Shown piece by piece: positions 1 through 64,000 of a stretch of 64,000 nt of DNA (its first letter is position 1; every line of letters starts with the position of its first letter). The notes beneath the pieces were generated by a model. The model was not told where the DNA came from, searched no databases, and saw only the letters and a program-made list of their open reading frames with translations. This DNA is from Tupaia tana (Eukaryota; Chordata; Mammalia; Scandentia; Tupaiidae): NCBI GenBank assembly GCA_026018925.1, contig JAKSZU010000050.1, positions 992,001 through 1,056,000 on the forward strand, read 5' to 3'. The translations under genes and the position numbers were made by a program.

Positions 1-336
1 GTTGGAGTTAGCGTCAGGGCCAGGATAGGGTTGCGGTTGAGATTCAGGTGTCCGCCTAGTGTTAGGGTTAGGTGTATGGTTTGATTTAGGATTCAGGTTA
101 GGTTAGGTTTGAAGTTAGTTTGAGGGAGTAAGTTTAGGGCTACTGTTAGTTTTCTGTTAACTGTTACAGTTGGAGTAAGCGTCAGGGTCAGGGTAGGGTG
201 GGGGTTAAGCATAAGGTGTCCGCCTATCGTTAGGGTTAGGTCTATGATTTGATTTAGGCTTCAGGTTAGGTTAGGTTTGAACTTAGTTTGAGGGAGTCAG
301 TTTAGGGCTACTGTTAGTTTTCGGGTAACTGTTACT

Positions 337-504
337 GTTGGAGTAAGCGTCAGGGTCTGGTTAGGTTTGGGGTTGAGCTTAAGGTGTCCGCCTAGGGTTA
401 GGGTTAGGTGTATGGTTTGATTTAGGCTTCAGGTTATGTTAGGTTTGCACTTAGTTTGAGGGAGTAAGTTTAGGGCTACTGTTAGTTTTCGTTTAACTGT
501 TACG
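337..504 (+). repeat. Representative satellite monomer (168 bp)
   Basis: This is one monomer, taken with its start at GTTGGAG. In order it has: a G-rich left part (GTTGGAG, then CAGGGTC, then a GGTTAGG/TTGGGG stretch); the landmark CTTAAGGTGTCCGCC; a telomere-like block; a linker of type GTGTATGG or GTCTATGG with TTTGA; a well-conserved core of type GGCTTCAGGTTAGG followed by TTTGAACTTAGTTTGAGGGA; and a right part AGTTTAGGGCTACTGTTAG with TTTTCGG and a variable end. Monomer classes differ mostly from the variable right end into the left part: CGGTTCAGTGTTACGG with GAGATAGCG; CGTTTAACTG with GAGTAAGCG; CGGGAAACTG; CAGTATTATGG (167 bp); CAGTGATATGG with CCTGGAGG; and TTGTATTTTTC with GGATTTAGCC. 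The start chosen is arbitrary, as in any tandem array. Confidence 0.93.
391..408 (+). repeat. Interstitial telomere-like motif (one example per monomer)
   Basis: The 18-base motif CCTAGGGTTAGGGTTAGG contains nearly three units of the TTAGGG telomere repeat. Exact or one-mismatch versions occur just after the GTGTCCG landmark in most monomers across the window. Common variants are CCTAGTG, CCTATTG and GGTTTAGG. No monomer has a long pure TTAGGG run, so this is an internal motif and not a chromosome end. Confidence 0.9.
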
Positions 505-928
505 GTTGGAGTAAGCGTCAGGGTCAGGTTAGGGTGGGGGTTAAGCATAAGTTGTCCGCCTAGGGTTAGGGTTAGGTCTATGGTTTCATTTTGGCTTCAG
601 GTTAGGTTAGGATTGAACTTAGTTTGAGGGAGTAAGTTTAGGGCTACTGTTAGTTTTCGGTTCAGTGTTACGTTTGGAGTTAGCGTGAGGGTCCTTTTAG
701 GGTTGGTGTTGAGCTTAAGGTGTCCGCCTAGGGTTAGGGTTAGGTCTGTGGTTTGAGTTAGGCTTCAGGTTAGGTTAGGTTTGAACTTAGTTTGAGGGAG
801 TAAGTTTAGGGCTACTGTTAGTTTTCGGCTCAGTGTTACGGTGGGAGTTAGCGTGAGGGTCAGGTTAGGGTTGGGTTTGAACTTCCGGTGTCCGCCTAGG
901 GTTAGGGTTAGGTGTATGGTTTGATTTA

Positions 929-964
929 GGCTTCAGGTTAGGTTAGGTTTGAACTTAGTTTGAG
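929..964 (+). repeat. Most conserved core of the monomer (example)
   Basis: These 36 bases begin GGCTTCAGGTTAGG and end AACTTAGTTTGAG. The same segment is close to invariant between monomer classes that differ strongly elsewhere, for example the classes with CGTTTAACTG, CAGTATTATGG or CGGGAAACTG. Changes seen here are mostly single bases, such as GGATTGAAC for GGTTTGAAC, or AAGTTAG for AACTTAG. A bound protein or a nucleosome-position constraint could explain it, but so could frequent gene-conversion tracts. No known binding site is recognised. Confidence 0.65.
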
Positions 965-3900
965 GCAGTAAGTTTAGGGCTACTGTTAGTTTTCGGTTAA
1001 GTGTTACGGTTGGAGTAAGCGTCAGGGTCAGGTTAGGTTTGGGGTTGAGCTTAAGGTGTCCGCCTAGGGTTAGGGTTAGGTGTACGGTTTGATTTAGGCT
1101 TCAGGTTAGGTTAGGTTTGAACTTAGTTTGAGGGAGCAAGTTTAGGGCTACTGTTAGTTTTCGGTTCAGTGTTACGGTTGGAGATAGCGTCAGGGTCAGG
1201 TTAGGGTTGGGTTTGAGCTTCAGGTGTCCGCCTAGTGTTAGGGTTAGGTGTATGGTTTGATTTAGGCTTCAGGTTAGGTTAGGTTTGAAGTTAGTTTGAG
1301 GGAGTAAGTTTAGGGCTACTGTTAGTTTTCGGTTCAGTATTATGGTTTGAGTTAGCGTCAGGGTCAGGTTAGGGTTGGGGTTAGCTTGAGGTGTCCGCCT
1401 AGGGTTAGGGTTAGGTCCATGGTTTGATTTAGGCTCCTGGTTAGGTTTGGTTTGAACTTAGTTTGAGTGAGTAAGTTTAGGGCTACTGTTAGTTTTCGGT
1501 TCAGTGTTACGGTTGGAGATAGCGTCAGGGTCAGGTTAGCGTTGGAGTGTAGCTTAAGGTGTCCGCCTAGGGTTAGGGTTAGGTCCGTGGTTTGATTTAG
1601 GCTCCAGGTTAGGTTACGTTTGAACTTAGTTTGAGTGAGTAAGTTTAGGACTATTGTTAGTTTTCGGTTCAGTGTTACGGTTGGAGATAGCGTCAGGGTC
1701 AGGTTAGGGTTGGGGTTGAGCTTCAGGTGTCCGCCTAGGGTTAGGGTTAGGTCTATGGTTTCATTTAGGCTTCAGGTTAGGTTACGTTTGAACTTAGTTT
1801 GAGTGAGTAAGTTTAGGGCTACTGTTAGTTTTCGGTTTAGAGTTACGGTTGGAGATAGCGTCAGGGTCAGGTTAGGGTTGGGTTTGAACTTCAGGTGTCC
1901 GCCTAGTTTTAGGGTTAGGTGTATGGTTTGTTTTAGGCTTCAGGTTAGGTTAGGTTTGAACTTAGTTTGAGGGAGTAAGTTTAGGGCTACTGTTAATTTT
2001 CGTTTAACTGTTACGGTTGGAGTAAGCGTCAGGGTTAGGTTATGGTGGGGTTTAAGCATAAGGTGTCCGCCTAGGTTTAGGGTTAGGACTATGGTTTCAT
2101 TTAGGCTTCAGGTTAGGTTAGGATTGAACTTAGTTTGAGGGAGTAAGTTTAGGGCTACTGTTAGTTTTCGGTTCAGTGTTATGGTTGGATTTAACCTCAG
2201 GGTCAGGTTAGGTTTGGGGTTAAGCTTAAGGTGTCCTCCTAGGGTTAGGGTTAGGTCTATTGTTTGATTTAGGCTTCAGGTTAGGTTAGGTTTGAACTTA
2301 GTTTGAGGGAGTAAGTTTAGGGCTACTGTTAGTTTTTGGTTCAGTGTTACATTTGGAGTTAGCGTGAGTGTCCGGTTAGGGTTGGGGTTGAGCTGAAGGT
2401 GTCCGCCTAGGGTTAGGGTTAGGTCTGTGGTTTGAGATAGGCTTCAGGTTAGGTTAGGTTTGAACTTAGTTTGAGTGAGTAAGTTTATGGCTACTGTTAG
2501 TTTTCGGTTTAGTGTTACGGTTGGAGATTGCGTCAGGGTCAGGTTAGGGTTGGGGTTGAGCTTCAGGTGTCCGCCTATTGTTAGTGTTAGGTCTATGATT
2601 TGAGTTAGGCTTCAGGTTAGGTTAGGTTTGAACTTAGTATGAGCGAGTAGGTTTAGGGCTACTCTTAGTTTTCGGTTCAGTGATATGGTTGGAGTTAGCC
2701 TGGAGGTCAGGTTAGGGTTGGGGTTGAGCTTAAGGTGTCCGCCTAGGGTTAGGGTTAGGTCTATGGTTTCATTTAGGCTTCAGGTTAGGTTAGGATTGAA
2801 CCTAGTTTGAGGGACTAAGTTTAGGGCTACTGTTAGTTTTCGGTTCAGTGTTATGGTTGGAGATAGCGTCAGGGTCAAGTTAGGGTTGGGGTTGAGATTC
2901 AGGTGTCCGCCTATGGCTAGGGTTAGGTCTATGGTTTGAGTTAGGCTTCAGGTTAGGTTAGGTTTGAACTTAGTTTGACGGAGTAAGTTTAGGCCTATTG
3001 TATTTTTCGGTTCAGTGTTACGGTTGGATTTAGCCTCAGGGTTGGTTAGGGTTGGGGTTAAGCTTAAGGTGTCCGCCTAGGGTTAGGGTTAGGTGTATGG
3101 TTTGATTTAGGCTTCAGGTTAGGTTCGGTTTGAACTTAGTTTGAGGGAGTAAGTTTAGGGCTACTGTTATTTTTCGTTTAAGTGTTACGGTTGGAGTAAG
3201 CGTCAGGGTTAGGTTAGGGTGGGGGTTAAGCATAAGGTGTCCGCCTAGGGTTAGGGTTAGGTCTATGGTTTGAGTTAGGCTTCAGGTTAGGTTAGGTTTG
3301 AACTTAGTCTGAGGGAGTAAAATTAGGGCTACGGTTAGTTTTCGGTTCAGTGTTACGGTTGGAGTTAGCGTGAGGGTCTGGTTAGGGTTGGGGTTGAGCT
3401 TAAGGTGTCCGCCTAGGGTTAGGGTTAAGGGTATGGTTTGATTTTGGCTTCTGGTTAGGTTAGGTTTGAACTTAGTTTGAGTGAGTAAGTTTAGGGCTAC
3501 TGTTAGTTTTCCGTTCAGTATTATGGTTGGAGTTAGCGTCAGGGTCAGGTTAGGGTTGGGGTTAGCTTGAGGTGTCCGCCTCTGGTTAGGGTTAGGTCCA
3601 TGGTTTGATTTAGGCTCCAGGTTAGGTTACGTTTGAACTTAGTTTGAGTGAGTAAGTTTAGGACTACTGTTAGTTTTCGGTTCAGTGTTACGGTTGGAGA
3701 TAGCGTCAGGGTCAGGTTAGGGTTGGAGTGGAGCTTAAGGTGTCCGCCTAGGGTTAGGGTTAGGTCTGTGGTTTGATTTAGGCTTCAGGTTAGGTTACGT
3801 TTGAGCTTAGTTTGAGTGAGTAAGTTTAGGGCTACTGTTAGTTTTCGGTTTAGTGTTACGGATGGAGATAGCGTCAGGGTCAGGTTAGGTTTGGGGTTGA

Positions 3901-5059
3901 GCTTCAGGTGTCCGACTATTGTTAGGGTTAGGTCTATGATTTGAGTTAGGCTTCAGGTTAGGTTAGGTTTGAACTTAGTTTGAGCGAGTAAGTTTAGGGC
4001 TACTCTTAGTTTTCGGTTCAGTGATATGGTTGGAGTTAGCCTGGAGGTCAGGTTAGGGTTGGGATTGAGCTTATGGTGTCCGCCTAGGGTTAGGGTGAGG
4101 TGTATGGTTTGATTTAGGCTTCAGGTTAGTTTAGGTTTGAACTTAGTTTGAGGGAGTAAGTTTAAGGCTACTGTTAGTTTTCGGGAAACTGTTACGGTTG
4201 GAGTTAGCGTCAGGGCCAGGTTTGGGTTGGGGTTAAGCATAAGGTGTCCGCCTAGGGTTAGGGTTAGGTCTATGATTTGATTTAGGCTTCAGGTTAGGTT
4301 AGGTTTGAAATTAGTTTGAGGGAGTCAGTTTAGGGCTACTGTTATTTTTCGGTTAACTGTTACGGTTGGATTAAGCGTCAGGGTCAGGTTAGGTTTGGGG
4401 TTGAGCTTAAGGTGTCCGCCTAGGGTTAGAGTTAGGTGTATGGTTTGATTTAGGCTTCAGGTTAGGTTAGGTTTGAACTTAGTTTGAGGGAGTAAGTTTA
4501 GGGCTACTGTTAGTTTTCGGTTCAGTGTTACGGTTGGATTTAACCTAAGGGTCAGGTTAGGGTTGGGGTTAAGCTTAAGGTGTCCGCCTAGGGTTAGGGT
4601 TAGGTCTATTGTTTGATATAGGCTTCAGGTTAGGTTAGGTTTGAAATTAGTTTGAGGGAGTAAGTTTAGGGCTACTGTTAGTTTTTGGTTCAGTGTTACA
4701 TTTGGAGTTAGCGTGAGTGTCCGGTTAGTGTTGGGGTTGAGCTTAAGGTGTCCGCCTAGGGTTAGGGTTAGGTCTGTGGTTTGAGATAGGCTTCAGGTTA
4801 GCTTAGGTTTGAACTTAGTTTGAGTGAGTAAGTTTATGGCTACTCTTAGTTTTTGGTTCAGTGATATGGTTGGAGTTAGCCTGGAGGTCAGGTTAGGGTT
4901 GGGGTTGAGCTTAAGGTGTCCGCCTAGGGTTAGGGTTAGGTGTATGGTTTGATTTAGGCTTCAGGTTAGGTTAGGTTTGAAGTTAGTTTCAGGAAGTTTA
5001 GGGCTACTGTTAGTTTTCGGTTAACTGTTACAGTTGGAGTAAGCGTCAGGGTCAGGTTA

Positions 5060-5068
5060 GGGGGGGGG
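5060..5068 (+). repeat. G9 tract in a 164-bp marker monomer (copy A)
   Basis: Nine consecutive G residues replace the usual TTAGGGTGGGGG or TTAGGGTTGGGG. The landmark spacing here is 164 bp (4,915 to 5,079) because a 4-bp loss turns the usual GAGGGAGTAAG into CAGGAAG upstream of the G tract. The pair of changes marks one lineage of monomer. Confidence 0.9.
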
Positions 5069-8000
5069 TTAAGCATAAGGTGTCCGCCTATGGTTAGGAT
5101 TAGGTCTATGGTTTCATTTAGGCTTCAGGTTAGGTTAGGATTGAACTTAGTTTGAGGGACTAAGTTTAGGGCTACTGTTAGTTTTCGGTTCAGTGTTACG
5201 GTTGGAGATAGCGTCAGGGTCAAGTTAGGGTTGGGGTTGAGATTCAGGTGTCCTCCTAGGGCTAGGGTTAGGTCTATGGTTTGAGTTAGGCTTCAGGTTA
5301 GGTTAGGTTTGAACTTAGTTTGAGGGAGTAAGTTTAGGCCTATTGTATTTTTCGCTTCAGTGTTACGGTTGGATTTAGCCTCAGGGTCAGGTTAGGGTTG
5401 GGGTTAAGCTTAAGGTGTCTGCCTAGGGTTAGGGTTAGGTGTATGGTTTGATTTAGGCTTCAGGTTATGTTAGGTTTGAACTTAGTCTGAGGGAGTAAAA
5501 TTAGGGCAACTGTTAGTTTTCGGTTCAGTGTTACAGTGGGAGTTAGCGTGAGGGTCAGGTTAGGGTTGGGGTTGAGCTTAAGGTTTCCGCCTAGGGTTAG
5601 GTTTAGGTGTATGGTTTGATTTTGGCTTCTGGTTAGGTTAGGTTTGAACTTAGTTTGAGGGAGTAAGTTTAGGGCTACTGTTAGTTTTCTGGTAACTGTT
5701 ACGGTTGGAGTTAGCATCAGGGTCAGGTTAGGGTTGGGGTTGAGCTTAAGGTTTCCGCCTAGTGTTAGGGTTAGGTGTATGGTTTGATTTAGGCTTCAGG
5801 TTAGGTTAGGTTTGAACTTAGTTTGACGGAGTAAGTTTAGGGCTACTGTTAGTTTTCGGTTCAGTATTATGGTTGGAGTTAGCGTCAGGGTCAGGTTAGG
5901 GTTGGGGTTAGCTTGAGGTGTCCGCCTAGGGTTAGGGTTAGGTCCATGGTTTGATTTAGGCTCCAGGTTAGGTTACGTTTGAACTTAGTTTGAGTGAGTA
6001 AGTTTAGGACTACTCTTAGTTTTTGGTTCAGTGTTACGGTTGGAGATAGCGTCAGGGTCAGGTTAGGGTTGGAGTTGAGCTTAAGGTGTTCGCCTAGGGT
6101 TAGGGTTAGGTCTATGATTTGAGTTAGGCTTCAGGTTAGGTTACATTTGAACTTAGTTTGAGCGAGTAAGTTTAGGGCTACTCTTAGTTTTCGGTTCAGT
6201 GATATGGTTGGAGTTAGCCTGGAGGTCAGGTTAGGGTTGGGGTTGAGCTTCAGGTGTCCGCCTAGGGTTAGGGTTAGGTGTATGGTTTGATTTAGGCTTC
6301 AGGTTAGGTTAGGTTTGAACTTAGTTTGAGGGAGTAAGTTTAGGGCTACTGTTAGTTTTCGGTTAACTGTTACGGTTGGAGTTAGCGTAAGGGCCAGGTT
6401 AGGGTTGGGGTTGAGATTAAGGTGTCCGCCTTGGGTTAGGGTTAGGTGTATGGTTTGATTTAGGCTTCAGGTTAGGTTAGGTTTGAAGTTAGTTTGAGGG
6501 AGTAAGTTTAGGGCTACTGTTAGTTTTCGGTTAACTGTTACAGTTGGAGTAAGCGTCAGGGCCAGGTTAGGGTTGGGGTTGAGATTAAGGTGTCCGCCTA
6601 GTGTTAGGGTTAGGTGTATGGTTTGATTTAGGCTTCAGGTTAGGTTAGGTTTGAAGTTAGTTTGAGGGAGTAAGTTTAGGACTACTGTTAGTTTTCGGTT
6701 AACTGTTACAGTTGGAGTAAGCGTCAGGGTCATGGTAGGGTGGGGGTTAAGCATAAGGTGTCCGCCTAGGGTTAGGGTTAGGTCTATGGTTTCATTTAGG
6801 CTTCAGGTTAGGTTAGGATTGAACTTAGTTTGAGGGAGTAAGTTTAGGGCTACTGTTAGTTTTCGGTTCAGTGTTACGTTTGGACTTAGCGTGAATGTCC
6901 GGTTAGGGTTGGTGTTGAGCTTAAGGTGTCCGCCTAGGGTTAGGTTTAGGTCTGTGGATTGAGTTAGGCTTCAGGTTAGGTTAGGTTTGAACTTAGTTTG
7001 AGGAAGTCAGGTTAGGGCTACACTTAGTTTTCGGTTCAGTGTTACAGTGGGAGTTAGCGTGAGGGTCAGGTTATGGTTGGGTTTGAACTTCAGGTGTCCG
7101 CCTAGGGTTAGGGTTAGGTGTATGGTTTGAGTTAGGCTTCAGGTTAGGTTAGGTTTGAACTTAGTTTGAGGGAGTAAGTTTAGGGCTACTGTTAGTTTTC
7201 GGTTAAGTGTTACGGTTGGAGTAAGCGTCAGGGTCAGGTTAGGTTTGGGGTTGAGCTTAAGGTGTCCGCCTAGGGTTAGGTTTAGGTGTATGGTTTGATT
7301 AAGGCTTCAGGTTCGGTTAGGTTTGAACTTAGTTTGAGGGAGTAAGTTTAGGGCTACTGTTAGTTTTCGGATCAGTGTTACGGTTGGATTTAGCCTCAGG
7401 GTCAGGTTAGGGTTGGGTTTAAGCTTAAGGTGTCCGCCTAGGGTTAGGGTTAGTTCTATTGTTTGAGTTAGGCTTCAGGTTAGGTTAGGTTTGAACTTAG
7501 TTTGAGGGAGACAGTTTAGTGCTACTGTTAGTTTTCGTTTAACTGTTACGGTTGGAGTAAGCGTCAGGGTCAGGTTAAGGTGGAGGTTAAGCATAAGTTG
7601 TCCGCCTATGGTTAGGGTTATTTCTATGGTTTCATTTAGGCTTCAGGTTAGGTTAGGATTGAACTTAGTTTGACGAGTAAGTTTAGGGCTACTGTTAGTT
7701 TTCGGTTCAATGTTACGTTTGGAGTTAGTGTGAGGGTCCGGTTAGGGTTGGGGTTGAGCTTAAGGTGTCGGCCTAGGGTTCGGTTTAGGTCTGTGGTTTG
7801 AGATAGGCTTCAGATTAGGTTAAGTTTGAACTTAGTTTGAGGGAGTAAATTTAGTGCTACTGTTAATTTTCGGTTCAGTGTTACGGTTGGAGATAGCGTC
7901 AGGGTCAGGTTAGGGTTGGGGTTGAGCTTCAGGTGTCCGCCTAGGGTTAGGGTTAGGTCTATGGTTTGAGTTAGGCTTCAGGTTAGGTTAGGTTTGAACT

Positions 8001-10905
8001 TAGTCTGAGGGAGTAAAATTAGGCCTACTGTTATTTTTCGGTTCAGTGTTACGGTTGGAGTTAGCGTGAGGGTCAGGTTAGGGTTGGGGTTGGGCTTAAG
8101 GTGTCCGCCTAGGGTTAGGTTTAGGTGTATGGTTTGATTTAGGCTTCAGGTTAGGTTAGGTTTGAACTTAGTTTGAGGGAGTAAGTTTAGGGCTACTGTT
8201 AGTTTTCGGGAAACTGTTACGGTTGGAGTTAGCCTCAGGGCCAGGTTAGGGTTGGGGTTGAGCTTCAGGTGTCCGCCTAGGGTAAGGGTTAGGTCTATGT
8301 TTGAGTTAGGCTTCAGGTTAGGTTAGGTTTGAAGTTAGTTTGTGGGAGTAAGTTTAGGGCTACTGTTAGTTTTCGGTTAACTGTTACAGTTGGACTAAGC
8401 GTCAGGGTCAGGTTAGGGTGTGGGTTAAGCATAAGGTTTCCGCCTAGGGTTAGGGTTAGGTCTATGATTTCATTTAGGCTTCAGGTTAGGTTAGGATTGA
8501 ACTTAGTTTGAGGGAGTAAGTTTAGGGCTACTGTTAGTTTTCGGTTCAGTGTTCCGGTTGGATTTAGCCTCATGGTCAGGTTAGGGTTGGGGTTAAGCTT
8601 AAGGTGTCCGCCTAGTGTTAGGGTTAGGTGTATGGTTTCATTTAGGCTTCAGGTTAGGTTAGGATTGAACTTAGTTTGAGGGAGTAAGTTTAGGGCTACT
8701 GTTAGTTTTCGGTTCAGTGTTACGGTTGGAGATAGCGTCAGGGTCAAGTTAGGGTTGGGGTTGAGATTCAGGTGTCCGCCTAGGGCTAGGGTTAGGTCTA
8801 TATTTGAGTTAGGCTTCAGGTTAGGTTAGGTTTGAACTTAGTTTGAGGGAGTAAGTTTAGGCCTATTGTATTTTTCTGTTCAGTGTTACCGTTGGATTTA
8901 GCCTCACGGTCAGGTTAGGGTTGGGGTTAAGCTTAAGGTGTCCGCCTAGGGTTATGTTTAGGTGTATGGTTTGATTTAGGCTTCAGGTTAGGTTAGGTTT
9001 AAACTTAGTTTGAGGGAGTAAGTTTAGGGCTACTGTTAGTTTTCGTTTAAGTGTTACGGTTGGAGTAAGCGTCAGGGTTAGGTTAGGGTGGGGGTTAAGC
9101 ATAAGGTGTCCGCCTAGGGTTAGGGTTAGGTCTATGGTTTCATTTAGGCTTTAGGTTAGGTTAGGATTGAACTTAGTTTGAGGGAGTAAGTTTAGGGCTA
9201 CTGTTAGTTTTCGGTTCAGTGTTACGGTTGGAGTTAGCGTGAGGGTTAGGTTAGTGTTGGGTTTGAACTTCAGGTGTCCGCCTAGGGATAGGGTTAGGTC
9301 TATGGTTTGAGTTAGGCTTCAGGTTAGGTTAGGTTTGAACTTAGTCTGAGGGAGTAAGTTTAGGGCTACTGTTAGTTTTCGGTTCAGTGTTACGGTTGGA
9401 GTTAGCGTGAGGGTCAGGTTAGTGTTGGGTTTGAACTTCAGGTGTCCGCCTAGTTTTAGGGTTAGGTGTATGGTTTGATTTAGGCTTCAGGTTAGGTTAG
9501 GTTTGAACTTAGTTTGAGGGAGTAAGTTTAGGGCTACTGTTAATTTTCGTTTAACTGTTACGGTTGGAGTAAGCGTCAGGGTTAGGTTATGGTGGGGTTT
9601 AAGAATAAGGTGTCCGCCTAGGTTTAGTGTTAGGACTATGGTTTCATTTAGGCTTCAGGTTAGGTTAGGATTGAACTTAGTTTGAGGGAGTAAGTTTAGG
9701 GCTACTGTTAGTTTTCGGTTCAGTGTTATGGTTGGATTTAACCTCAGGGTCAGGTTAGGGTTGGGGTTAAGCTTAAGGTGTCCGCCTAGGGTTAGGGTTA
9801 GGTCTATTGTTTGATTTAGGCTTCAGGTTAGGTTAGGTTTGAACTTAGTTTGAGGGAGTAAGTTTAGGGCTACTGTTAGTTTTTGGTTCAGTGTTACATT
9901 TGGAGTTAGCGTGAGTGTCCGGTTAGGGTTGGGGTTGAGCTGAAGGGGTCCGCCTAGGGTTAGGGTTAGGTCTGTGGTTTGAGATAGGCTTCAGGTTAGG
10001 TTAGGTTTGAACTTAGTTTGAGGAAGTAAGTTTAGGGCTACTGTTAGTTTTCTGGTAACTATTACGGTTGGAGTTAGCGTCAGGTACAGGTTAGGGTTTG
10101 GGTTGAGCTTAAGGTTTCCGCCTAGTGTTAGTGTTAGGTGTATGGTTTGATTTAGGCTTCAGGTTAGGTTAGGTATGAACTTAGTTTGAGGGAGTAAGTT
10201 TAGGGCTACTGTTATTTTTCGGTTCAGTATTATGGTTGGAGTTAGCGTCAGGGTCAGGTTAGGGTTGGGGTTAGCTTGAGGTGTCCGCCTAGGGTTAGGG
10301 TTAGGTCCATGGTTTGATTTAGGCTCCAGGTTAGGTTACGTTTGAACTTAGTTTGAGTGAGTAAGTTTAGGACTACTGTTAGTTTTCGGTTCAGTGTTAC
10401 GGTTGGAGATAGCGTCAGGGTAAGGTTAGGGTTGGGGTTGTGCTTCAGGTGTCCACCTAGGGTTAGGGTTAGGTCTCTGGTTTGATTTAGGCTTCAGGTT
10501 AGGTTACGTTTGAACTTAGTTTGAGTGAGTAAGTTTAGGGCTACTGTTAGTTTTCGGTTTAGTGTTACGGTTGGAGATAGCGTCAGGGTCAGGTTAGGTT
10601 TGGGGTTGAGCTTCAGGTGTCCGACTATTGTTAGGGTTAGGTCTATGATTTGAGTTAGGCTTCAGGTTAGGTTAGGTTTGAACTCAGTTTGAGCGAGTAA
10701 GTTTAGGGCTACTCTTAGTTTTCGGTTCAGTGATATGGTTGGAGTTAGCCTGGAGGTCAGGTTAGGGTTGGGGTTGAGCTTAAGGTGTCCGCCTAGGGTT
10801 AGGGTTAGGTGTATGGTTTGATTTAGGCTTCAGGTTAGGTTAGGTTTGAACTTAGTTTGAGGGAGTAAGTTTAGGGCTACTCTTAGTTTTCGGGAAACTG
10901 TTACG

Positions 10906-42760: not shown

Positions 42761-42776
42761 TCGTTTAACTGTTATG

Positions 42777-42932
42777 GTTAGAGTAAGCGTCAGGGTCAGG
42801 TTAGGGTGGGGGTTAAGCATAAGGGTTAGGGTTAGGACTATGGTTTCATTTACTCTTCAGGTTAGGTTAGTATTGAACTTAGTTTGAGGCAGTAAGTTTA
42901 GGGCTACTGTTAGTTTTCGGTTCAGTGTTACG
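42777..42932 (+). repeat. 156-bp deletion monomer (copy 1)
   Basis: The monomer lacks 12 bp: AAGCATAAG runs straight into GGTTAGGGTTAGG, with no GTGTCCGCCTAG between them at 42,823. It thus loses the landmark but keeps the telomere-like motif. Confidence 0.88.
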
Positions 42933-47607: not shown

Positions 47608-47623
47608 TCGTTTAACTGTTATG

Positions 47624-47779
47624 GTTAGAGTAAGCGTCAGGGTCAGGTTAGGGTGGGGGTTAAGCATAAGGGTTAGGGTTAGGACTATGGTTTCATTTAC
47701 TCTTCAGGTTAGGTTAGTATTGAACTTAGTTTGAGGCAGTAAGTTTAGGGCTACTGTTAGTTTTCGGTTCAGTGTTACG
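47624..47779 (+). repeat. 156-bp deletion monomer (copy 2)
   Basis: The same 12-bp loss occurs at 47,670, 4,847 bp downstream of the first. The shared breakpoint marks common descent. Confidence 0.88.
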
Positions 47780-48760
47780 TTTGCAGTTAGCGTGAGGGTC
47801 CGGTTAGGGTTGGTGTTGAGCTTAAGGTGTCCGCCTAGGGTTAGGGTTAGGTGTATGGTTTGAGTTAGGCTTCAGGTTAGGTTAGGTTAGAACTTAGTTT
47901 GAGGGAGTAAGTTTAGGGTTACTGTTAGTTTTCGGTTCAGTGTTACGGTTGGAGATAGCGTCAGGGTCAGGTTAGGGTTGGGGTTGAGCTTCAGGTGTCT
48001 GCCTAGGGTTAGGGTTAGGTTATGGTTTGAGTTAGGCTTCAGGTTAGGTTAGGTTTGAACTTAGTTTTAGGGAGTAAGTTTAGGGCTATTGTTAGTTTTC
48101 TGTTCAGTGTTACGGTGGGAGTTAGCGTGAGGGTCAGGTTAGGGTTGGGTTTGAACTTCAGGTGTCCGCCTAGGGTTAGGGTTAGGTGTGTGGTTTGATT
48201 TAGGCTTCAGGTTAGGTTAGGTTTGAACTTAGTTTGAGGGAGTAAGTTTAGGGCTACTGTTAGTTTTCGGTTAAGTGTTACGGTTGGAGATAGCGTCAGG
48301 GTCAGGTTAGGGTTTGAGTGGAGCTTAAGGTGTCTGCCTAGGGTTAGGGTTAGGTCTGTGGTTTGATTTAGGCTTCAGGTTAGGTTACGTTTGAACTTAG
48401 TTTGAGTGAGTTAGTTTAGGGCTACTGTTAGTTTTCGGTTCAGTGTTACGATTGGAGAAAGCGTCAGGGTCAGGTTAGGGTTGGGGTTGAGCTTCAGGTG
48501 TCCGCCTATTGTTAGGGTTAGTTCTATGGTTTGAGTTAGGATTCAGGTTAGGTTCGGTTTGAACTTAGTTTGAGGGAGTAAGTTTAGGGCTACTGATAGT
48601 TTTCGGGAAACTGTTACGGTTGGAGTTAGCGTCAGGGCCAGGTTAGGGTTGGGGTTGAGATTCAGGTGTTCGTCTAGGGTTAGGGTTAGGTGTATGGTTT
48701 GATTTAGGCTTCAGGTTAGGTTAGGTTTGAAGTTAGTCTGAGGGAGTAAGTTTAGGGCTA

Positions 48761-53280: not shown

Positions 53281-53302
53281 TTTTAGGGGTACTGTCAGTT
53301 TT
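52296..53302 (+). repeat. 6-monomer tandem duplication, copy 2 (1,007 bp)
   Basis: Second copy, diverging at 53,302 where CGGTTAACCG replaces CATTTAACTG. Its last part is already the GGGGTACTGTCAG monomer that opens the following 4,870-bp HOR, so the two repeat systems overlap here. Confidence 0.83.
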
Positions 53303-56300
53303 CGGTTAACCGTTACGGTTGGAGTAAGCGCCAGGGTCAGGTTAGGTTTGGGGTTGAGCTTAAGGTGTCCACCTAGGGTTAGGGTTAGGTGTATGGTTTG
53401 ATTTAGACTTCAGGTTAGGTTAGGTTTGAACTTAGTTTGAGGGAGTAAGTTTAGGGCTACTGTTAGTTTTCGTTTAACTGTTACGGTTGGAGTAAGCGTC
53501 AGGGTCAGGTTAGGGTGGGGGTTAAGCATAAGGTGTCCGCCTTGGGTTAGGCTTAGGTCTATGGTTTCATTTAGGCTTCAGGTTCGGTTAGGATTGAACT
53601 TAGTTTGAGGGAGTAAGTTTAGAGCTACTGTTAGTTTTCGGTTCAGTGTTACGTTTGGAGTTAGCGTTAGGGTCCGGTTAAGGTTGGGGTTGAGCTTAAG
53701 GTGTCCTCCTAGGTTTAGGGTTAGGTCTGTGATTTGAGTTAGGCTTCAGGTTAGGTTAGGTTTGAACTTAGTTTTAGGGAGAAAGTTTAGGACTACTGTT
53801 AGTTTTCGGTTCAGTGTTACGGTTGGAGATAGCGTCAGGGTCAGTTTAGGGTTGGGGTGGAGCTTCAGGTGTCGGCCTAGGGTTAGGGTTAGGTCTATGG
53901 TTTGAGTTAGGCTTCAGGTTAGGTTAGGTTTTAACTTAGTTTTAGGGAGTAAGTTTAGGGCTACTGTTAGTTTTTGGTTCAGTGTTACGGTTGGAGTTAG
54001 CGTGAGTGTCAGGTTAGGGTTGGGTTTGAGCTTCAGGTGTCCGCCTAGGGTTAGGTTTAGGTGTATGGTGTAATTTAGGCTTCAGGTTAGGTAAGGTTTG
54101 AACTCAGATTTAGGGAGTAAGTTTAGGGCTACTGTTAGTTTTCGGGAAACTGTTACGGTTGGAGTTAGCGTCAGGGTCAGGTCAGGGTTGGGGTTGAGAT
54201 TAAGGTGTCTGTATAGGGTTAGGGTTAGGTGTATGGTTTGATTTAGGCTTCAGGTTAGGTTAGGTTTGAAGTTACTTTGAGGGAGTAAGTTTAGGGCTAC
54301 TGTTAGTTTTCGGTTAACTGTTACACTTGGAGTAAGCGTCAGGGTCAGGTTAGGGTGGGGGTTAAGCATAAGGTGTCCACCTAGGGTTAGGGTTAGGTCT
54401 ATGGTTTGAGTTAGGCTTCAGGTTAGGTTAGGTTTGAACTTAGTTTGAGGGAGTCAGTTTAGGGCTACTGTTAGTTTTCGGTTAACTGTTACATTTGGAG
54501 TAAGCGTCAGGGTCAGGTTAGGTTTGGGGTTGAGCTTAAGGTGTCCGCCTAGGGTTAGGGTTAGGTGTATTGTTTGATTTAGGCTTCAGGTTATGTTAGG
54601 TTTGAACTTAGTTTGAGGGAGTAAGTTTAGGGCTACTGTTAGTTTTCGTTTAACTGTTACGGTTGGAGTAAGCGTCAGGGTCAGGTTAGGGTGGTGGTTA
54701 AGCATAAGGTGTCCGCCTAGGGTTAGGGTTAGGTCTATGGTTTCATTTAGGCTTCAGGTTAGGTTAGGATTGAACTTAGTTTGAGGGAGTAAGTTTAAGG
54801 CTACTGTTAGTTTTCGGTTCAGTGTTACGGTTGGATTTAGCCTCAGGGTCAGGTTAAGGTTGGGGTTAAGCTTAAGGTGTCCGCCTAGGGTTAGCGTTAG
54901 GTCTATTGCTGAAGTTAGGCTTCAGGTTAGGTTAGGTTTGAACTTAGTTTGAGGGAGTAAGTTTAGGGCTACTGTTAGTTTTTGGTTCAGTGTTACGTTT
55001 GGAGTTAGTGTGAGGGTCCGGTTAGGGATGGGGTTGAGCTTAAGGTGTCCGCCTAGGGATAGAGTTAGGTCTGTGGTTTGAGTTAGGCTTCAGGTTAGGT
55101 TAGGTTTGAACTTAGTTTGAGGGAGTAAGTTTAGGGCTACTCTTAGTTTTCGGGTAACTGTTACAGTTGGAGTTAGTTTCAGGGCCAGGTTAGGGTTGGG
55201 GTTGAGCTTAAGGTGTCCGCCTAGGGTTAGGGTTAGGTCTATGGTTTCATTTAGGCTTCAGGTAAGGTTAGGATTGAACTTAGTTTGAGGCAGTAAGTCT
55301 AGGGCTACTGGTAGTTTTCGGTTCAGTGTTACGGTTGGAGATAGCATCAGGGTCAGGTTAGGGTTGGGGTTGAGCTTCAGGTGTCCGCCTAGGGTTAGGG
55401 TTAGGTCTATTGTTTGTGTTAGGCTTCAGGTTAGGATAGGTTTGAACTTAGTTTGAGGGAGTAAGTTTAAGGCTACTGTTAGTTTTCGGTTCAGTGTTAC
55501 GGTTGGACTTAGCGTGAGGGTCAGGTTAGGGTTGTGGTTGAACTTCAGGTGTCCGTCTAGGGATAGGGTTAGGTGTATGGTTTGATTTAGGCTTCAGGTT
55601 AGTTTAGGTTTGAACTTAGTTTGAGGGAGTAAGTTTAGGGCTACTGTTAGTTTTCCGGTAACTGTTACGATTGGAGTTAGCGTCAGGGACAGGTTATGGT
55701 TGGGGTTGAGCTTAAGGTGTCCGCCTAGGGTTACGGTTAGGTGTAAGGTTTGATTTAGGCTTCAGATTAGGTTATGTTTGAACTTAGTTAGAGGGAGTAA
55801 GTTTTGGGCTACTCTTAGTTTTCGGTTAACTGTTACGGTTGGAGTAAGCGTCAGGGTCAGGTTAGGTTTGGGGTTGAGCTTAAGGTGTCCGCCTAGGGTT
55901 AGGGATAGGTGTATGGTTTGATTTAGGCTTCAAGTTAGGTTATGTTTGAACTTAGTTTGAGGGAGTAAGTTTAGGGCTACTGTTAGTTTTCTGTTCAGTA
56001 TTATGGTTGGAGTTAGCGTCAGGGTCAGGTTAGGGTTGGGGTTAGCTTGAGGTGTCCGCGTAGGGTTAGGGTTAGGTCTATGGTTTGAGTTAGGCTTCAG
56101 GTTAGGTTAGGTTTGAACTTAGTTTGAGGGAGTAAGTTTAGGGCTACTGTTAGTTTTCAGTTCAGTGTTACCGTTGGAGTTAGCGTGAGGGTCAGGTTAG
56201 GGTTGGGGTTGAGCTTAAGGTGTCCGCCTAGGGTTAGGGTTAGGTGTATGGTTTGATTAAGGCTTCAGGTTAGGTTAGGTTTGAACTTAGTTTGAGGGAG

Positions 56301-58150
56301 TAAGTTTAGGGCTACTGTTAGTTTTCGTTTAACTGTTACGGTTGGAGTAAGCGTCAGGGTCAGGTTATGGTGGCGGTCAAGCATAAGGTGTCTGCCTAGG
56401 GTTAGGGTTAGGTCTATGGTTTCATTTAGGCTTCAGGTTAGGTTAGGATTGAACTTAGTTTGAGGGAGTAAGTCTAGGGCTACTGGTAGTTTTCTGTTCA
56501 GTGTTACGGTTGGAGATAGCATCAGGGTCAGGTTAGGGTAGGGGTTGAGCTTCAGGTGTCCGCCTAGGGTTAGGGTTAGGTCTATTGTTTGTGTTAGGCT
56601 TCAGGTTAGGTTAGGTTTTAACTTAGTTTGAGGGAGTAAGTTTAGGGCTACTGTTAGTTTTCCGTTCAGTGTTACGGTTGGACTTAGCGTGAGGGTCAGG
56701 TTAGGGTTCGGGTTGAACTTCAGGTGTCCGTCTAGGGTTAGCGTTAGGTGTATGGTTTGATTTAGGCTTCAGGTTAGTTTAGGTTTGAACTTAGTTTGAG
56801 GGAGTAAGTTTAGGGCTACTGTTAGTTTTCGGTTCAGTGTTATTGTTGGAGATAGCTTGATGGTCAGGTTAGTGTTGGGGTTGAGCTTAAGGTGTCCGCC
56901 TAGGGTTAGGGTTAGGTCTGTGATTTGAGTTAGGCTTCAGGTTAGGTTAGGTTTGAACTTAGTTTGAGGGAGTAATTTTAGGGGTACTGTCAGTTTTCGG
57001 TTAACCGTTATGGTTGGAGTAAGCGCCAGGGTCAGGTTAGGTTTGGGGTTGAGCCTAAGGTGTCCACCTAGGGTTAGGGTTAGGTGTATGGTTTGATTTA
57101 GGCTTCAGGTTAGGTTAGGTTTGAACTTAGTTTGAGGTAGTAAGTTTAGGGCTACTCTTAGTTTTCGTTTAACTGTTACGGTTGGAGTAAGCGTCAGGGT
57201 CAGGTTAGGGTGGGGGTTAAGCATAAGGTGTCCGCCTTGGGTTAGGGTTAGGTCTATGGTTTCATTTAGGCTTCAGGTTAGGTTAGGATTGAACTTAGTT
57301 TGAGGGAGTAAGTTTAGAGCTACTGTTAGTTTTCGGTTCAGTGTTACGTTTGGAGTTAGCGTTAGGGTCCGGTTAAGGTTGGGGTTGAGCTTAAGGTGTC
57401 CGCCTAGGTTTAGGGTTAGGTCTGTGATTTGAGTTAGGCTTCAGGTTAGGTTAGGTTTGAACTTAGTTTTAGGGAGAAAGTTTAGGACTACTGTTAGTTT
57501 TCGGTTCAGTGTTACGGTTGGAGATAGCGTCAGGGTCAGGTTAGGGTTGGGGTGGAGCTTCAGGTTCGGCCTAGAGTTAGGGTTAGGTCTATGGTTTGAG
57601 TTAGGCTTCAGGTTAGGTTAGGTTTTAACTTAGTTTTAGGGATTAAGTTTAGGGCTACTGTTAGTTTTAGGTTCAGTGTTACGGTTGGAGTTAGCGTGAG
57701 GGTCAGGTTAGGGTTGGGTTTGAGCTTCAGGTGTCCGCCTAGGGTTAGGTTTAGGTGTATGGTGTAATTTAGGCTTCAGGTTAGGTAAGGTTTGAACTCA
57801 GTTTGAGGGAGTAAGTTTAGGGCTACTGTTAGTTTTCGGGAAACTGTTACGGTTGGAGTTAGCGTCAGGGTCAGGTTAGGGTTGGGGTTGAGATAAAGGT
57901 GTCCGTCTAGGGTTAGGGTTAGGTGTATGGTTTGAGTTAGGCTTCAGGTTAGTTTAGGTTTGAACTTAGTTTGAGGGAGTAAGTTTAGGGCTACTGTTAG
58001 TTTTCGGTTCAGTGTTATTGTTGGAGATAGCTTGATGGTCAGGTTAGTGTTGGGGTTGAGCTTAAGGTGTCCGCCTAGGGTTAGGGTTAGGTCTGTGATT
58101 TGAGTTAGGGTTCAGGTTAGGTTAGGTTTGAACTTAGTTTGAGGGAGTAA
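53281..58150 (+). repeat. 29-monomer HOR, copy V1 (4,870 bp)
   Basis: The unit is 29 x 168 minus 2. Independent markers with offset 4,870 are GGGGTACTGTCAG (53,281 and 58,151; also 56,976 and 61,846) and GTATAGGG (54,211 and 59,081). The detectable match to V2 begins slightly earlier, near 53,090. Only scattered single-base changes were noticed, such as GGTTATGG at 55,693 against GGTTTTGG at 60,563. Confidence 0.88.
56976..58150 (+). repeat. 7-monomer module within the 4,870-bp HOR (1,175 bp)
   Basis: The GGGGTACTGTCAG monomer occurs at 53,281, 56,976, 58,151, 61,846 and 63,021, so intervals alternate 3,695 and 1,175 bp (22 and 7 monomers). The sequence after 56,976 resembles that after 53,281 for about 900 bp, with changes such as CAGGTTCGGCC for CAGGTGTCGGCC. 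The 1,175-bp interval is thus a nested tandem repeat of part of the larger unit. Confidence 0.8.
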
Positions 58151-61100
58151 TTTTAGGGGTACTGTCAGTTTTCGGTTAACCGTTACGGTTGGAGTAAGCG
58201 CCAGGGTCAGGTTAGGTTTGGGGTTGAGCCTAAGGTGTCCACCTAGGGTTAGGGTTAGGTGTATGGTTTGATTTAGGCTTCAGGTTAGGTTAGGTTTGAA
58301 CTTAGTTTGAGGTAGCAAGTTTAGGGCTACTGTTAGTTTTCGTTTAACTGTTACGGTTGGAGTAAGCGTCAGGGTCAGGTTAGGGTGGGGGTTAAGCATA
58401 AGGTGTCCGCCTAGGGTTAGGGTTAGGTCTATGGTTTCATTTAGGCTTCAGGTTAGGTTAGGATTGAACTTAGTTTGAGGGAGTAAGTTTAGAGCTACTG
58501 TTAGTTTTCGGTTCAGTGTTACGTTTGGAGTTAGCGTTAGGGTCCGGTTAAGGTTGGGGTTGAGCTTAAGGTGTCCTCCTAGGTTTAGGGTTAGGTCTGT
58601 GATTTGAGTTAGGCTTCAGGTTAGGTTAGGTTTGAACTTAGTTTTAGGGAGAAAGTTTAGGACTACTGTTAGTTTTCGGTTCAGTGTTACGGTTGGAGAT
58701 AGCGTCAGGGTCAGTTTAGGGTTGGGGTGGAGCTTCAGGTGTCGGCCTAGGGTTAGGGTTAGGTCTATGGTTTGAGTTAGGCTTCAGGTTAGGTTAGGTT
58801 TTAACTTAGTTTTAGGGAGTAAGTTTAGGGCTACTGTTAGTTTTTGGTTCAGTGTTACGGTTGGAGTTAGCGTGAGTGTCAGGTTAGGGTTGGGTTTGAG
58901 CTTCAGGTGTCCGCCTAGGGTTAGGTTTAGGTGTATGGTGTAATTTAGGCTTCAGGTTAGGTAAGGTTTGAACTCAGATTTAGGGAGTAAGTTTAGGGCT
59001 ACTGTTAGTTTTCGGGAAACTGTTACGGTTGGAGTTAGCGTCAGGGTCAGGTCAGGGTTGGGGTTGAGATTAAGGTGTCTGTATAGGGTTAGGGTTAGGT
59101 GTATGGTTTGATTTAGGCTTCAGGTTAGGTTAGGTTTGAAGTTACTTTGAGGGAGTAAGTTTAGGGCTACTGTTAGTTTTCGGTTAACTGTTACACTTGG
59201 AGTAAGCGTCAGGGTCAGGTTAGGGTGGGGGTTAAGCATAAGGTGTCCACCTAGGGTTAGGGTTAGGTCTATGGTTTGAGTTAGGCTTCAGGTTAGGTTA
59301 GGTTTGAACTTAGTTTGAGGGAGTCAGTTTAGGGCTACTGTTAGTTTTCGGTTAACTGTTACATTTGGAGTAAGCGTCAGGGTCAGGTTAGGTTTGGGGT
59401 TGAGCTTAAGGTGTCCGCCTAGGGTTAGGGTTAGGTGTATTGTTTGATTTAGGCTTCAGGTTATGTTAGGTTTGAACTTAGTTTGAGGGAGTAAGTTTAG
59501 GGCTACTGTTAGTTTTCGTTTAACTGTTACGGTTGGAGTAAGCGTCAGGGTCAGGTTAGGGTGGTGGTTAAGCATAAGGTGTCCGCCTAGGGTTAGGGTT
59601 AGGTCTATGGTTTCATTTAGGCTTCAGGTTAGGTTAGGATTGAACTTAGTTTGAGGGAGTAAGTTTAAGGCTACTGTTAGTTTTCGGTTCAGTGTTACGG
59701 TTGGATTTAGCCTCAGGGTCAGGTTAAGGTTGGGGTTAAGCTTAAGGTGTCCGCCTAGGGTTAGCGTTAGGTCTATTGCTGAAGTTAGGCTTCAGGTTAG
59801 GTTAGGTTTGAACTTAGTTTGAGGGAGTAAGTTTAGGGCTACTGTTAGTTTTTGGTTCAGTGTTACGTTTGGAGTTAGTGTGAGGGTCCGGTTAGGGATG
59901 GGGTTGAGCTTAAGGTGTCCGCCTAGGGATAGAGTTAGGTCTGTGGTTTGAGTTAGGCTTCAGGTTAGGTTAGGTTTGAACTTAGTTTGAGGGAGTAAGT
60001 TTAGGGCTACTCTTAGTTTTCGGGTAACTGTTACAGTTGGAGTTAGTTTCAGGGCCAGGTTAGGGTTGGGGTTGAGCTTAAGGTGTCCGCCTAGGGTTAG
60101 GGTTAGGTCTATGGTTTCATTTAGGCTTCAGGTAAGGTTAGGATTGAACTTAGTTTGAGGCAGTAAGTCTAGGGCTACTGGTAGTTTTCGGTTCAGTGTT
60201 ACGGTTGGAGATAGCATCAGGGTCAGGTTAGGGTTGGGGTTGAGCTTCAGGTGTCCGCCTAGGGTTAGGGTTAGGTCTATTGTTTGTGTTAGGCTTCAGG
60301 TTAGGATAGGTTTGAACTTAGTTTGAGGGAGTAAGTTTAAGGCTACTGTTAGTTTTCGGTTCAGTGTTACGGTTGGACTTAGCGTGAGGGTCAGGTTAGG
60401 GTTGTGGTTGAACTTCAGGTGTCCGTCTAGGGATAGGGTTAGGTGTATGGTTTGATTTAGGCTTCAGGTTAGTTTAGGTTTGAACTTAGTTTGAGGGAGT
60501 AAGTTTAGGGCTACTGTTAGTTTTCCGGTAACTGTTACGATTGGAGTTAGCGTCAGGGACAGGTTTTGGTTGGGGTTGAGCTTAAGGTGTCCGCCTAGGG
60601 TTACGGTTAGGTGTAAGGTTTGATTTAGGCTTCAGATTAGGTTATGTTTGAACTTAGTTAGAGGGAGTAAGTTTTGGGCTACTCTTAGTTTTCGGTTAAC
60701 TGTTACGGTTGGAGTAAGCGTCAGGGTCAGGTTAGGTTTGGGGTTGAGCTTAAGGTGTCCGCCTAGGGTTAGGGATAGGTGTATGGTTTGATTTAGGCTT
60801 CAAGTTAGGTTATGTTTGAACTTAGTTTGAGGGAGTAAGTTTAGGGCTACTGTTAGTTTTCTGTTCAGTATTATGGTTGGAGTTAGCGTCAGGGTCAGGT
60901 TAGGGTTGGGGTTAGCTTGAGGTGTCCGCGTAGGGTTAGGGTTAGGTCTATGGTTTGAGTTAGGCTTCAGGTTAGGTTAGGTTTGAACTTAGTTTGAGGG
61001 AGTAAGTTTAGGGCTACTGTTAGTTTTCAGTTCAGTGTTACCGTTGGAGTTAGCGTGAGGGTCAGGTTAGGGTTGGGGTTGAGCTTAAGGTGTCCGCCTA

Positions 61101-63020
61101 GGGTTAGGGTTAGGTGTATGGTTTGATTAAGGCTTCAGGTTAGGTTAGGTTTGAACTTAGTTTGAGGGAGTAAGTTTAGGGCTACTGTTAGTTTTCGTTT
61201 AACTGTTACGGTTGGAGTAAGCGTCAGGGTCAGGTTATGGTGGCGGTCAAGCATAAGGTGTCTGCCTAGGGTTAGGGTTAGGTCTATGGTTTCATTTAGG
61301 CTTCAGGTTAGGTTAGGATTGAACTTAGTTTGAGGGAGTAAGTCTAGGGCTACTGGTAGTTTTCTGTTCAGTGTTACGGTTGGAGATAGCATCAGGGTCA
61401 GGTTAGGGTTGGGGTTGAGCTTCAGGTGTCCGCCTAGGGTTAGGGTTAGGTCTATTGTTTGTGTTAGGCTTCAGGTTAGGTTAGGTTTTAACTTAGTTTG
61501 AGGGAGTAAGTTTAGGGCTACTGTTAGTTTTCCGTTCAGTGTTACGGTTGGACTTAGCGTGAGGGTCAGGTTAGGGTTCGGGTTGAACTTCAGGTGTCCG
61601 TCTAGGGTTAGCGTTAGGTGTATGGTTTGATTTAGGCTTCAGGTTAGTTTAGGTTTGAACTTAGTTTGAGGGAGTAAGTTTAGGGCTACTGTTAGTTTTC
61701 GGTTCAGTGTTATTGTTGGAGATAGCTTGATGGTCAGGTTAGTGTTGGGGTTGAGCTTAAGGTGTCCGCCTAGGGTTAGGGTTAGGTCTGTGATTTGAGT
61801 TAGGCTTCAGGTTAGGTTAGGTTTGAACTTAGTTTGAGGGAGTAATTTTAGGGGTACTGTCAGTTTTCGGTTAACCGTTATGGTTGGAGTAAGCGCCAGG
61901 GTCAGGTTAGGTTTGGGGTTGAGCCTAAGGTGTCCACCTAGGGTTAGGGTTAGGTGTATGGTTTGATTTAGGCTTCAGGTTAGGTTAGGTTTGAACTTAG
62001 TTTGAGGTAGTAAGTTTAGGGCTACTCTTAGTTTTCGTTTAACTGTTACGGTTGGAGTAAGCGTCAGGGTCAGGTTAGGGTGGGGGTTAAGCATAAGGTG
62101 TCCGCCTTGGGTTAGGGTTAGGTCTATGGTTTCATTTAGGCTTCAGGTTAGGTTAGGATTGAACTTAGTTTGAGGGAGTAAGTTTAGAGCTACTGTTAGT
62201 TTTCGGTTCAGTGTTACGTTTGGAGTTAGCGTTAGGGTCCGGTTAAGGTTGGGGTTGAGCTTAAGGTGTCCGCCTAGGTTTAGGGTTAGGTCTGTGATTT
62301 GAGTTAGGCTTCAGGTTAGGTTAGGTTTGAACTTAGTTTTAGGGAGAAAGTTTAGGACTACTGTTAGTTTTCGGTTCAGTGTTACGGTTGGAGATAGCGT
62401 CAGGGTCAGGTTAGGGTTGGGGTGGAGCTTCAGGTTCGGCCTAGAGTTAGGGTTAGGTCTATGGTTTGAGTTAGGCTTCAGGTTAGGTTAGGTTTTAACT
62501 TAGTTTTAGGGATTAAGTTTAGGGCTACTGTTAGTTTTAGGTTCAGTGTTACGGTTGGAGTTAGCGTGAGGGTCAGGTTAGGGTTGGGTTTGAGCTTCAG
62601 GTGTCCGCCTAGGGTTAGGTTTAGGTGTATGGTGTAATTTAGGCTTCAGGTTAGGTAAGGTTTGAACTCAGTTTGAGGGAGTAAGTTTAGGGCTACTGTT
62701 AGTTTTCGGGAAACTGTTACGGTTGGAGTTAGCGTCAGGGTCAGGTTAGGGTTGGGGTTGAGATAAAGGTGTCCGTCTAGGGTTAGGGTTAGGTGTATGG
62801 TTTGAGTTAGGCTTCAGGTTAGTTTAGGTTTGAACTTAGTTTGAGGGAGTAAGTTTAGGGCTACTGTTAGTTTTCGGTTCAGTGTTATTGTTGGAGATAG
62901 CTTGATGGTCAGGTTAGTGTTGGGGTTGAGCTTAAGGTGTCCGCCTAGGGTTAGGGTTAGGTCTGTGATTTGAGTTAGGGTTCAGGTTAGGTTAGGTTTG
63001 AACTTAGTTTGAGGGAGTAA
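58151..63020 (+). repeat. 29-monomer HOR, copy V2 (4,870 bp)
   Basis: Full second copy in the same order as V1, including the CTGAAGTTAGG, GTTTGTGTTAGG and GGTGTAATTTAGG variant monomers. It ends where the GGGGTACTGTCAG monomer restarts at 63,021. Confidence 0.88.
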
Positions 63021-64000
63021 TTTTAGGGGTACTGTCAGTTTTCGGTTAACCGTTACGGTTGGAGTAAGCGCCAGGGTCAGGTTAGGTTTGGGGTTGAGCC
63101 TAAGGTGTCCACCTAGGGTTAGGGTTAGGTGTATGGTTTGATTTAGGCTTCAGGTTAGGTTATGTTTGAACTTAGTTTGAGGTAGCAAGTTTAGGGCTAC
63201 TGTTAGTTTTCGTTTAACTGTTACGGTTGGAGTAAGCGTCAGGGTCAGGTTAGGGTGGGGGTTAAGCATAAGGTGTCCGCCTAGGGTTAGGGTTAGGTCT
63301 ATGGTTTCATTTAGGCTTCAGGTTAGGTTAGGATTGAACTTAGTTTGAGGGAGTAAGTTTAAGGCTACTGTTAGTTTTCGGTTCAGTGTTACGGTTGGAT
63401 TTAGCCTCAGGGTCAGGTTAGGGTTGGGGTTAAGCTTAAGGTGTCCGCCTAGGGTAGGGTTAGGTCTATTGCTGAAGTTAGGCTTCAGGTTAGGTTAGGT
63501 TTGAACTTAGTTTGAGGGAGTAAGTTTAGGGCTACTGTTAGTTTTTGGTTCAGTGTTACGTTTGGAGTTAGTGTGAGGGTCCGGTTAGGGTTGGGGTTGA
63601 GCTTAAGGTGTCCGCCTAGGGATAGAGTTAGGTCTGTGGTTTGAGTTAGGCTTCAGGTTAGGTTAGGTTTGAACTTAGTTTGAGGGAGTAAGTTTAGGGC
63701 TACTCTTAGTTTTCGGGTAACTGTTACTGTTGGAGTTAGTTTCAGGGCCAGGTTAGGGTTCGGGTTGAGCTTAAGGTGTCCGCCTAGGGTTAGGGTTAGG
63801 TCTATGGTTTCATTTAGGCTTCAGGTAAGGTTAGGATTGAACTTAGTTTGAGGGAGTAAGTCTAGTGCTACTGGTAGTTTTCGGTTCAGTGTTACGGTTG
63901 GAGATAGCATCAGGGTCAGGTTAGGGTTGGGGTTGAGCTTCAGGTGTCCGCCTAGGGTTAGGGTTAGGTCTATTGTTTGTGTTAGGCTTCAGGTTAGGTT
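63021..64000 (+). repeat. 29-monomer HOR, copy V3 (partial, 7 monomers missing)
   Basis: Bases 63,021 to about 63,350 match V2 with offset 4,870. From AAGGCTACTG at 63,361 the match is to 59,667, offset 3,694. The difference is 1,176 bp, exactly seven monomers, so V3 has lost the module covering roughly V2 58,490-59,660, or never received it. The copy continues past the window end. Confidence 0.87.

Follow-up and report, generated by a model that had tools for sequence, protein, structure and literature searches.

Satellites with telomeric motifs in a complex monomer are already known as a kind. As far as the available part of its description goes, PaB6 of Prospero autumnale is a 249-base-pair (bp) pericentromeric satellite that carries TTAGGG motifs, seven of them intact and five imperfect, as well as sub-repeats; its clones are mostly constant in length and 92-100% alike, and a 256-bp variant was attributed to insertion of a TTAGGG (PMC4273535). 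We analysed a 64,000-nucleotide stretch of the Tupaia tana genome (contig JAKSZU010000050.1, forward-strand positions 992,001 to 1,056,000; hereafter the window, with positions counted from its first letter), which consists of a tandem array of 168-bp units. We consider it quite likely that we are dealing with an ordinary complex satellite and that its monomer descended from a tract of telomere-type hexamers. Its likeness to PaB6 lies in a complex satellite monomer that is built with TTAGGG motifs (PMC4273535). Compared by description, the two differ in that PaB6 is 249 bp long with its motifs dispersed among other sequence, whereas the Tupaia unit is 168 bp long and has a hexamer rhythm throughout.

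Large intrachromosomal telomere-like blocks are known as heterochromatic interstitial telomeric sequences (het-ITS), for example in the Chinese hamster, and their amplification has been proposed to occur by unequal crossing-over, gene conversion, slippage or rolling circle (PMC6410037). As outlined in that source, they share with the Tupaia array the large blocks of telomere-like repeat and offer a precedent for amplifying interstitial telomeric sequence (PMC6410037). They differ in being blocks of the telomeric repeat, whereas here the unit is 168 bp long and (TTAGGG)3 is found nowhere in the window. Reviews also deal with interstitial telomeric sequence that has been amplified and with degenerate telomeric motifs that occur in clusters (PMC6410037, PMC9498494, PMC8621592). 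In the available description of Tanacetum cinerariifolium, each monomer of TcSAT1 and TcSAT3 contains one perfect telomeric motif together with imperfect telomere-like ones, and these too are satellite monomers carrying telomere-like motifs; they differ from the Tupaia monomer in that the motif is the plant T3AG3, and a hexamer rhythm is not mentioned in that part of the source (PMC6532368). In potato, according to the portion available, the subtelomeric satellites CL14 and CL34 are directly joined to the telomeric repeat (PMC3276127). A search of open-access papers with short strings from the Tupaia monomer returned one 13-base match, in a paper on another subject (PMC5998014) that we took as chance, and no others.

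The origin of a satellite monomer is often hard to trace. In the Tupaia array a rhythm of six bases can still be read across the unit, which allows us to propose a sequence of events, from decay through fixation of a unit of 28 repeats to duplication of blocks; relatives could serve to test it. The array would thus be a clean, long example of a simple telomeric repeat turning into a complex satellite; as the kind has been documented before, the gain is one of clarity and not of principle. Telomere-similar centromeric arrays in potato were reportedly described by Tek and Jiang in 2004, and these differ from the present case in being made of the plant repeat. Two exact 25-base patterns from the monomer had no match in the collections viral_contigs or genome_contigs, and blastn of positions 1-1680 had none in phages or plasmids at 1e-5; these negatives say little, the collections being by description without eukaryote genomes and possibly omitting records from the genome of the window itself.

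The 168-bp array and its six-base rhythm

Tandem Repeats Finder returned the whole window (1-64000) as a single 168-bp tandem array of 381.6 copies with 88% matches, and wraparound alignment divided it into 382 units, the one at the right end being a 104-bp partial. The array (1..64000, + strand) showed neither an edge nor a foreign insertion within the window. GC skew lay between +0.51 and +0.56 in each of the 32 2-kb bins and indicates that the array runs in one orientation throughout. The 381 full monomers were 168 bp long in 308 cases, the others measuring 167 bp (60), 166 bp (7), 164 bp (4) or 156 bp (2), and comprised 254 distinct sequences. Their identity to the consensus averaged 0.936 (range 86-98%, lowest value 0.863) and was flat along the array, at 0.929-0.940 over 20 successive bins, of which 19 held 20 monomers each and the final one a single monomer; mean identity from monomer to monomer was 89%. 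No open reading frame of at least 150 amino acids was present in six frames of the window (open ends included, code table 11), and Rfam gave no match in a scan limited to positions 1-10000. The locus is thus a long head-to-tail array of a unit exceeding 100 bp which, by the open reading frame and Rfam scans, is non-coding, as befits a complex satellite.

A preliminary description of the window had presented the monomer as a frozen array of 28 telomere-type hexamers and had set an excess of period-6 signal over composition-matched shuffles as a test. That excess was found. The period-6 Fourier power of the consensus was 13.35, against 1.88 at the second-strongest frequency, and it was equalled in none of 2000 mononucleotide shuffles and none of 2000 dinucleotide shuffles. 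The rhythm is also evident in single units, since six bases was the strongest period (among periods up to 42 bp) in 380 of the 381 full monomers, and in the raw array, where matching at lags below 168 averaged 0.43 at multiples of 6 and 0.18 at lags of 3 modulo 6. That it is a by-product of a G/T-rich composition and short words is next to inconceivable. Order-4 Markov sequences did reach the observed power in 19 of 2000 cases, but a model of that order already holds the four- and five-base telomeric words, and none of 2000 sequences did so under either an order-2 or an order-3 model, in line with the shuffles. These data support a real rhythm and a hexameric ancestry far beyond chance.

We then read the wraparound-alignment consensus in hexamers from GTTGGAG, the register in which the first monomer occupies 1..168 on the + strand. 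The second base of the hexamer was T in 22 of 28, exactly as counted earlier by hand, and the commonest bases at the remaining positions (n=28) were T at the first (14, with G at 11), T at the third (17), A at the fourth (18), G at the fifth (20) and G at the sixth (18). Without gaps, three of the 28 hexamers were identical to GTTAGG and seven more were one base off, making 10 within one change; 1000 dinucleotide shuffles led us to expect 0.19 and 0.93, respectively, so the earlier remark that several in-register hexamers are GTTAGG or one change away holds well above expectation. The first monomer also contains the telomeric core GTTAGGGTTAGG at 61..72 (+ strand). The claim of an exact division into 28 hexamers stands as a net length only, because the best gapped alignment of the consensus to TTAGGG includes four one-base indels, two of them losses and two gains, which put consensus positions of about 23-50 and 101-127 one base out of register. 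The interpretation given in the preliminary description is partly supported: its main line is correct, but its details go too far.

The ancestral motif

Gapped alignment of the consensus to candidate motifs gave scores of 70 for TTAGGG, 61 for TTTAGG, 50 for TTAGG, 49 for TTAGGC, 42 for TTTAGGG and 39 for TTGGGG. TTAGGG was also first among the six-base classes that were scored, a ranking which took in only those passing a three-base-word filter, and 122 of 166 aligned bases (about 73%) matched it. As in a telomere-derived satellite of the PaB6 kind, the monomer is composed of intact and degenerate TTAGGG units with a hexamer periodicity beyond composition. The meaning of the TTAGGG lead was gauged by simulating degenerate arrays from six motifs, 200 arrays each. 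The source motif always won its own arrays, and a TTAGGG lead of at least 9, which is the lead observed, was reached in 99% of the 200 TTAGGG-derived simulations and in none of the 1000 from the five other motifs. The ancestral motif was therefore probably TTAGGG.

Several results weigh against so simple an ancestry. Without gaps, TTTAGG fitted the consensus slightly better than GTTAGG (109 versus 106 of 168 bases), and a bootstrap over ungapped hexamers favoured it in 3541 of 5000 replicates, with GTTAGG first in 1411. The observed TTAGGG lead stood at the low end of the simulations from pure TTAGGG, whose mean was 24. Variants within the array showed no lean towards the telomeric base: at the 44 consensus positions that depart from TTAGGG, minor alleles were telomeric in 296 of 857 cases (34.5%, where permutation gave a null of 33.9%), and of 42 sites 11 had the telomeric base as their commonest minor allele (26%, with 30% under the null). 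This test, like those of CpG sites and of site conservation below, was run on the 254 distinct monomers, with the 127 repeat copies among the full monomers and the partial unit set aside. Finally, neither a flanking telomere nor an intermediate form was seen within the 64-kb window.

The ungapped fit and its bootstrap would suit an origin from a non-telomeric hexameric microsatellite, for example a TTTAGG-like one, that merely resembles the telomere repeat. We regard such an origin as improbable, since TTAGGG leads by 70 to 61 once gaps are allowed, TTTAGG won 200 of 200 simulated arrays derived from TTTAGG, and a random hexamer would rarely happen to have a known telomere motif as its best match. 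A bootstrap over gapped units (GTTAGG in 4888 of 5000) was not used here because it is circular, the units having been aligned to TTAGGG beforehand. Aligning the consensus to the telomere repeat, as had been suggested, thus places TTAGGG first with gaps and TTTAGG marginally ahead without them.

The low TTAGGG lead together with the ungapped edge of TTTAGG led us to conclude that the seed of the array was probably a mixed-motif or already degenerate telomere-type repeat. A special case of telomeric descent, and compatible with it, is a source tract that naturally mixed TTAGGG, TTTAGG and TTAGG, which we entertain as a tentative possibility. It would account for a lead of 9 where pure sources averaged 24; the composite unit TTAGGTTAGGG scored 66, runner-up to TTAGGG among the 12 units tried, and GGTTAGGTTAGG is present in the consensus. 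However, the low lead could equally have come about because changed hexamers were copied before the 168-bp unit was fixed, which would give the same pattern and is indistinguishable from a mixed source by the consensus alone. Of the earlier proposal that the monomer is an amplified piece of degenerate telomere repeat, the hexameric ancestry and the best gapped fit to TTAGGG hold up; the piece more probably came from a mixed or already degenerate telomere-type repeat, and a directly telomeric source is putative.

Since the variants lack a telomeric lean, no ancestral states are visible in the array, and the minor-allele test gave no support to retained telomeric states, a trait that is supportive of the PaB6-like kind and optional for it. 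We also rejected a functional telomere and a het-ITS, that is, an array of hexamers, as long perfect runs of TTAGGG were not found in the window, where (TTAGGG)3 has no occurrence and TTAGGGTTAGGG has one.

Proposed fixation of the unit and growth of the array

The monomer had also been called frozen as a complex satellite, and the length variants bear this out. Across 73 of the 381 full monomers we found 19 distinct deletion patterns, of which 18 lose one, two or four bases and a single one removes whole hexamers (12 bp); the aligner placed two single-base insertions. The exceptional pattern belongs to a 156-bp monomer at 42777..42932 (+ strand), which fits an in-register loss of consensus hexamers 9 and 10 (12 bp). 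Compared with the consensus minus positions 49-60 it is identical at 144 of 156 bases, although the aligner scattered the 12 gaps over positions 49-73, so that the exact place of the deletion is an interpretation. An identical second 156-bp monomer lies at 47624..47779 (+ strand), inside the second copy of a 20-monomer block.

Runs of 5-29 consecutive monomers recur elsewhere in the array in 25 instances, with an identity of at least 98.5% per monomer. The longest internal duplication (53654..63393, + strand) comprises 29 monomers from 53654 with an adjoining copy from 58524, all 29 pairs being at least 98.5% identical; its end was estimated from the 4870-bp spacing. The 20-monomer duplication (40267-48470, end estimated) has copies at 40267 and 45114, 4847 bp apart. 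These two large duplications point to block-wise growth of the array. Both have an offset of 29 monomers, with spacings of 4870 and 4847 bp. This offset also had the most pairs of at least 99% identity (48), and its longest runs are the same two local duplications. No offset from 1 to 99 monomers rose more than 0.02 above the overall identity of 0.890, and we accordingly rejected a higher-order-repeat array of the alpha-satellite type, since no fixed multi-monomer unit extends along the array.

The Jukes-Cantor distance between TTAGGG and the consensus was 0.33, and that between the consensus and the monomers 0.067. Taken as a rough scale and assuming similar rates, these values would place the greater part of the decay before the spread of the present array. 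We therefore propose the following history for a telomere-derived unit. The starting point would have been a run of TTAGGG hexamers with near-variants, located at an interstitial site or at the inner margin of a telomere, that escaped upkeep by telomerase and accrued point changes and a few one-base indels, leading to the match of about 73% that is measured today. Head-to-tail amplification of a 28-repeat segment (168 bp) may have come next; pairing that keeps to the hexamer register would of itself yield a unit length divisible by 6. With enough divergence between the hexamers, exchange would have shifted from the hexamer to the 168-bp unit, and for that reason changes of length in hexamer steps would have nearly stopped, which is how we read the single whole-hexamer pattern among 19. 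Growth and homogenisation would have followed through duplication of monomer blocks, of which the 25 repeated runs are the visible record, leaving monomers that are 94% identical to the consensus.

The 168-bp unit might itself have been assembled in two steps, from a unit of about 78-90 bp that was then duplicated, which would be compatible with telomeric descent. Among lags 1-167, the array matched itself best at 78 (0.506) and 90 (0.502), the consensus matched itself at 94 of 168 bases at each of them, and Tandem Repeats Finder also gave a 90-bp period, with 57% matches. However, 5.4% of 5000 hexamer-block shuffles attained 94 matches, and the score of a gapped self-alignment was equalled by 8% of the block shuffles (n=300) and by 19% of 300 simulated degenerate telomere tracts. 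Since the lags are suggestive and the similarity between the halves is not significant, we consider this route doubtful and did not adopt it.

Possible function of the array

The telomeric signal in the window is confined to one strand, with 780 matches to YTAGGGTTR on the + strand and none on the - strand. This nonamer is, we presume, a TRF-type site. The consensus holds three such sites, starting at positions 25, 56 and 62, and at least one is kept in 361 of the 381 full monomers, in a count that extended 8 bases or a little further into the following unit. The three sites are intact in 56, 68 and 72% of the 254 distinct monomers, and their conservation falls at the 44th, 66th and 76th percentile among all 9-base windows. 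Since their conservation does not clearly exceed that of other 9-base windows, we rejected selection for TRF-type sites; judging from the motif itself, the sites could still bind TRF-like proteins. It is unlikely, in our estimation, that the array is a near-nucleosome-length, end-to-end hexamer satellite from a mixed-motif telomere, caught after its unit of exchange had switched, in which about two TRF-type sites per monomer would remain and continue to draw telomere proteins to a block that is not a telomere.

A structural role, in heterochromatin of the subtelomeric or pericentromeric type, appears most likely. Nucleosome phasing was not apparent in the consensus, where the power of AA/TT/TA was 0.02-0.10 at 9.9, 10.5 and 11.2 bp compared with 3.74 at 6 bp. 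The sequence TTCGNNNNANNCGGG, which we take to be the core of the CENP-B box, had no match on either strand of the window, and a centromeric satellite of the CENP-B-box type was rejected on this ground. A G-quadruplex pattern occurred at seven places on the + strand of the window and at none on the - strand.

The consensus has four CpG sites, at positions 12, 53, 154 and 167. C-to-T changes at these sites amounted to 7.4%, compared with 1.9% at the 13 other C sites, and G-to-A changes to 5.1%, compared with 2.1% at other G. On the sequence evidence these changes give a hint of cytosine methylation, from a set of four sites in which one dominates with 42 of the 75 T alleles. The stretch TGTCCGCC, at consensus positions 49-56, is among the least telomere-like, yet its conservation is 0.93-1.00. 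The TTTT at consensus positions 150-153, within GTTAGTTTTCGG, has a rounded conservation of 1.00, and positions 150 and 151 are free of variants in all 254 distinct monomers.

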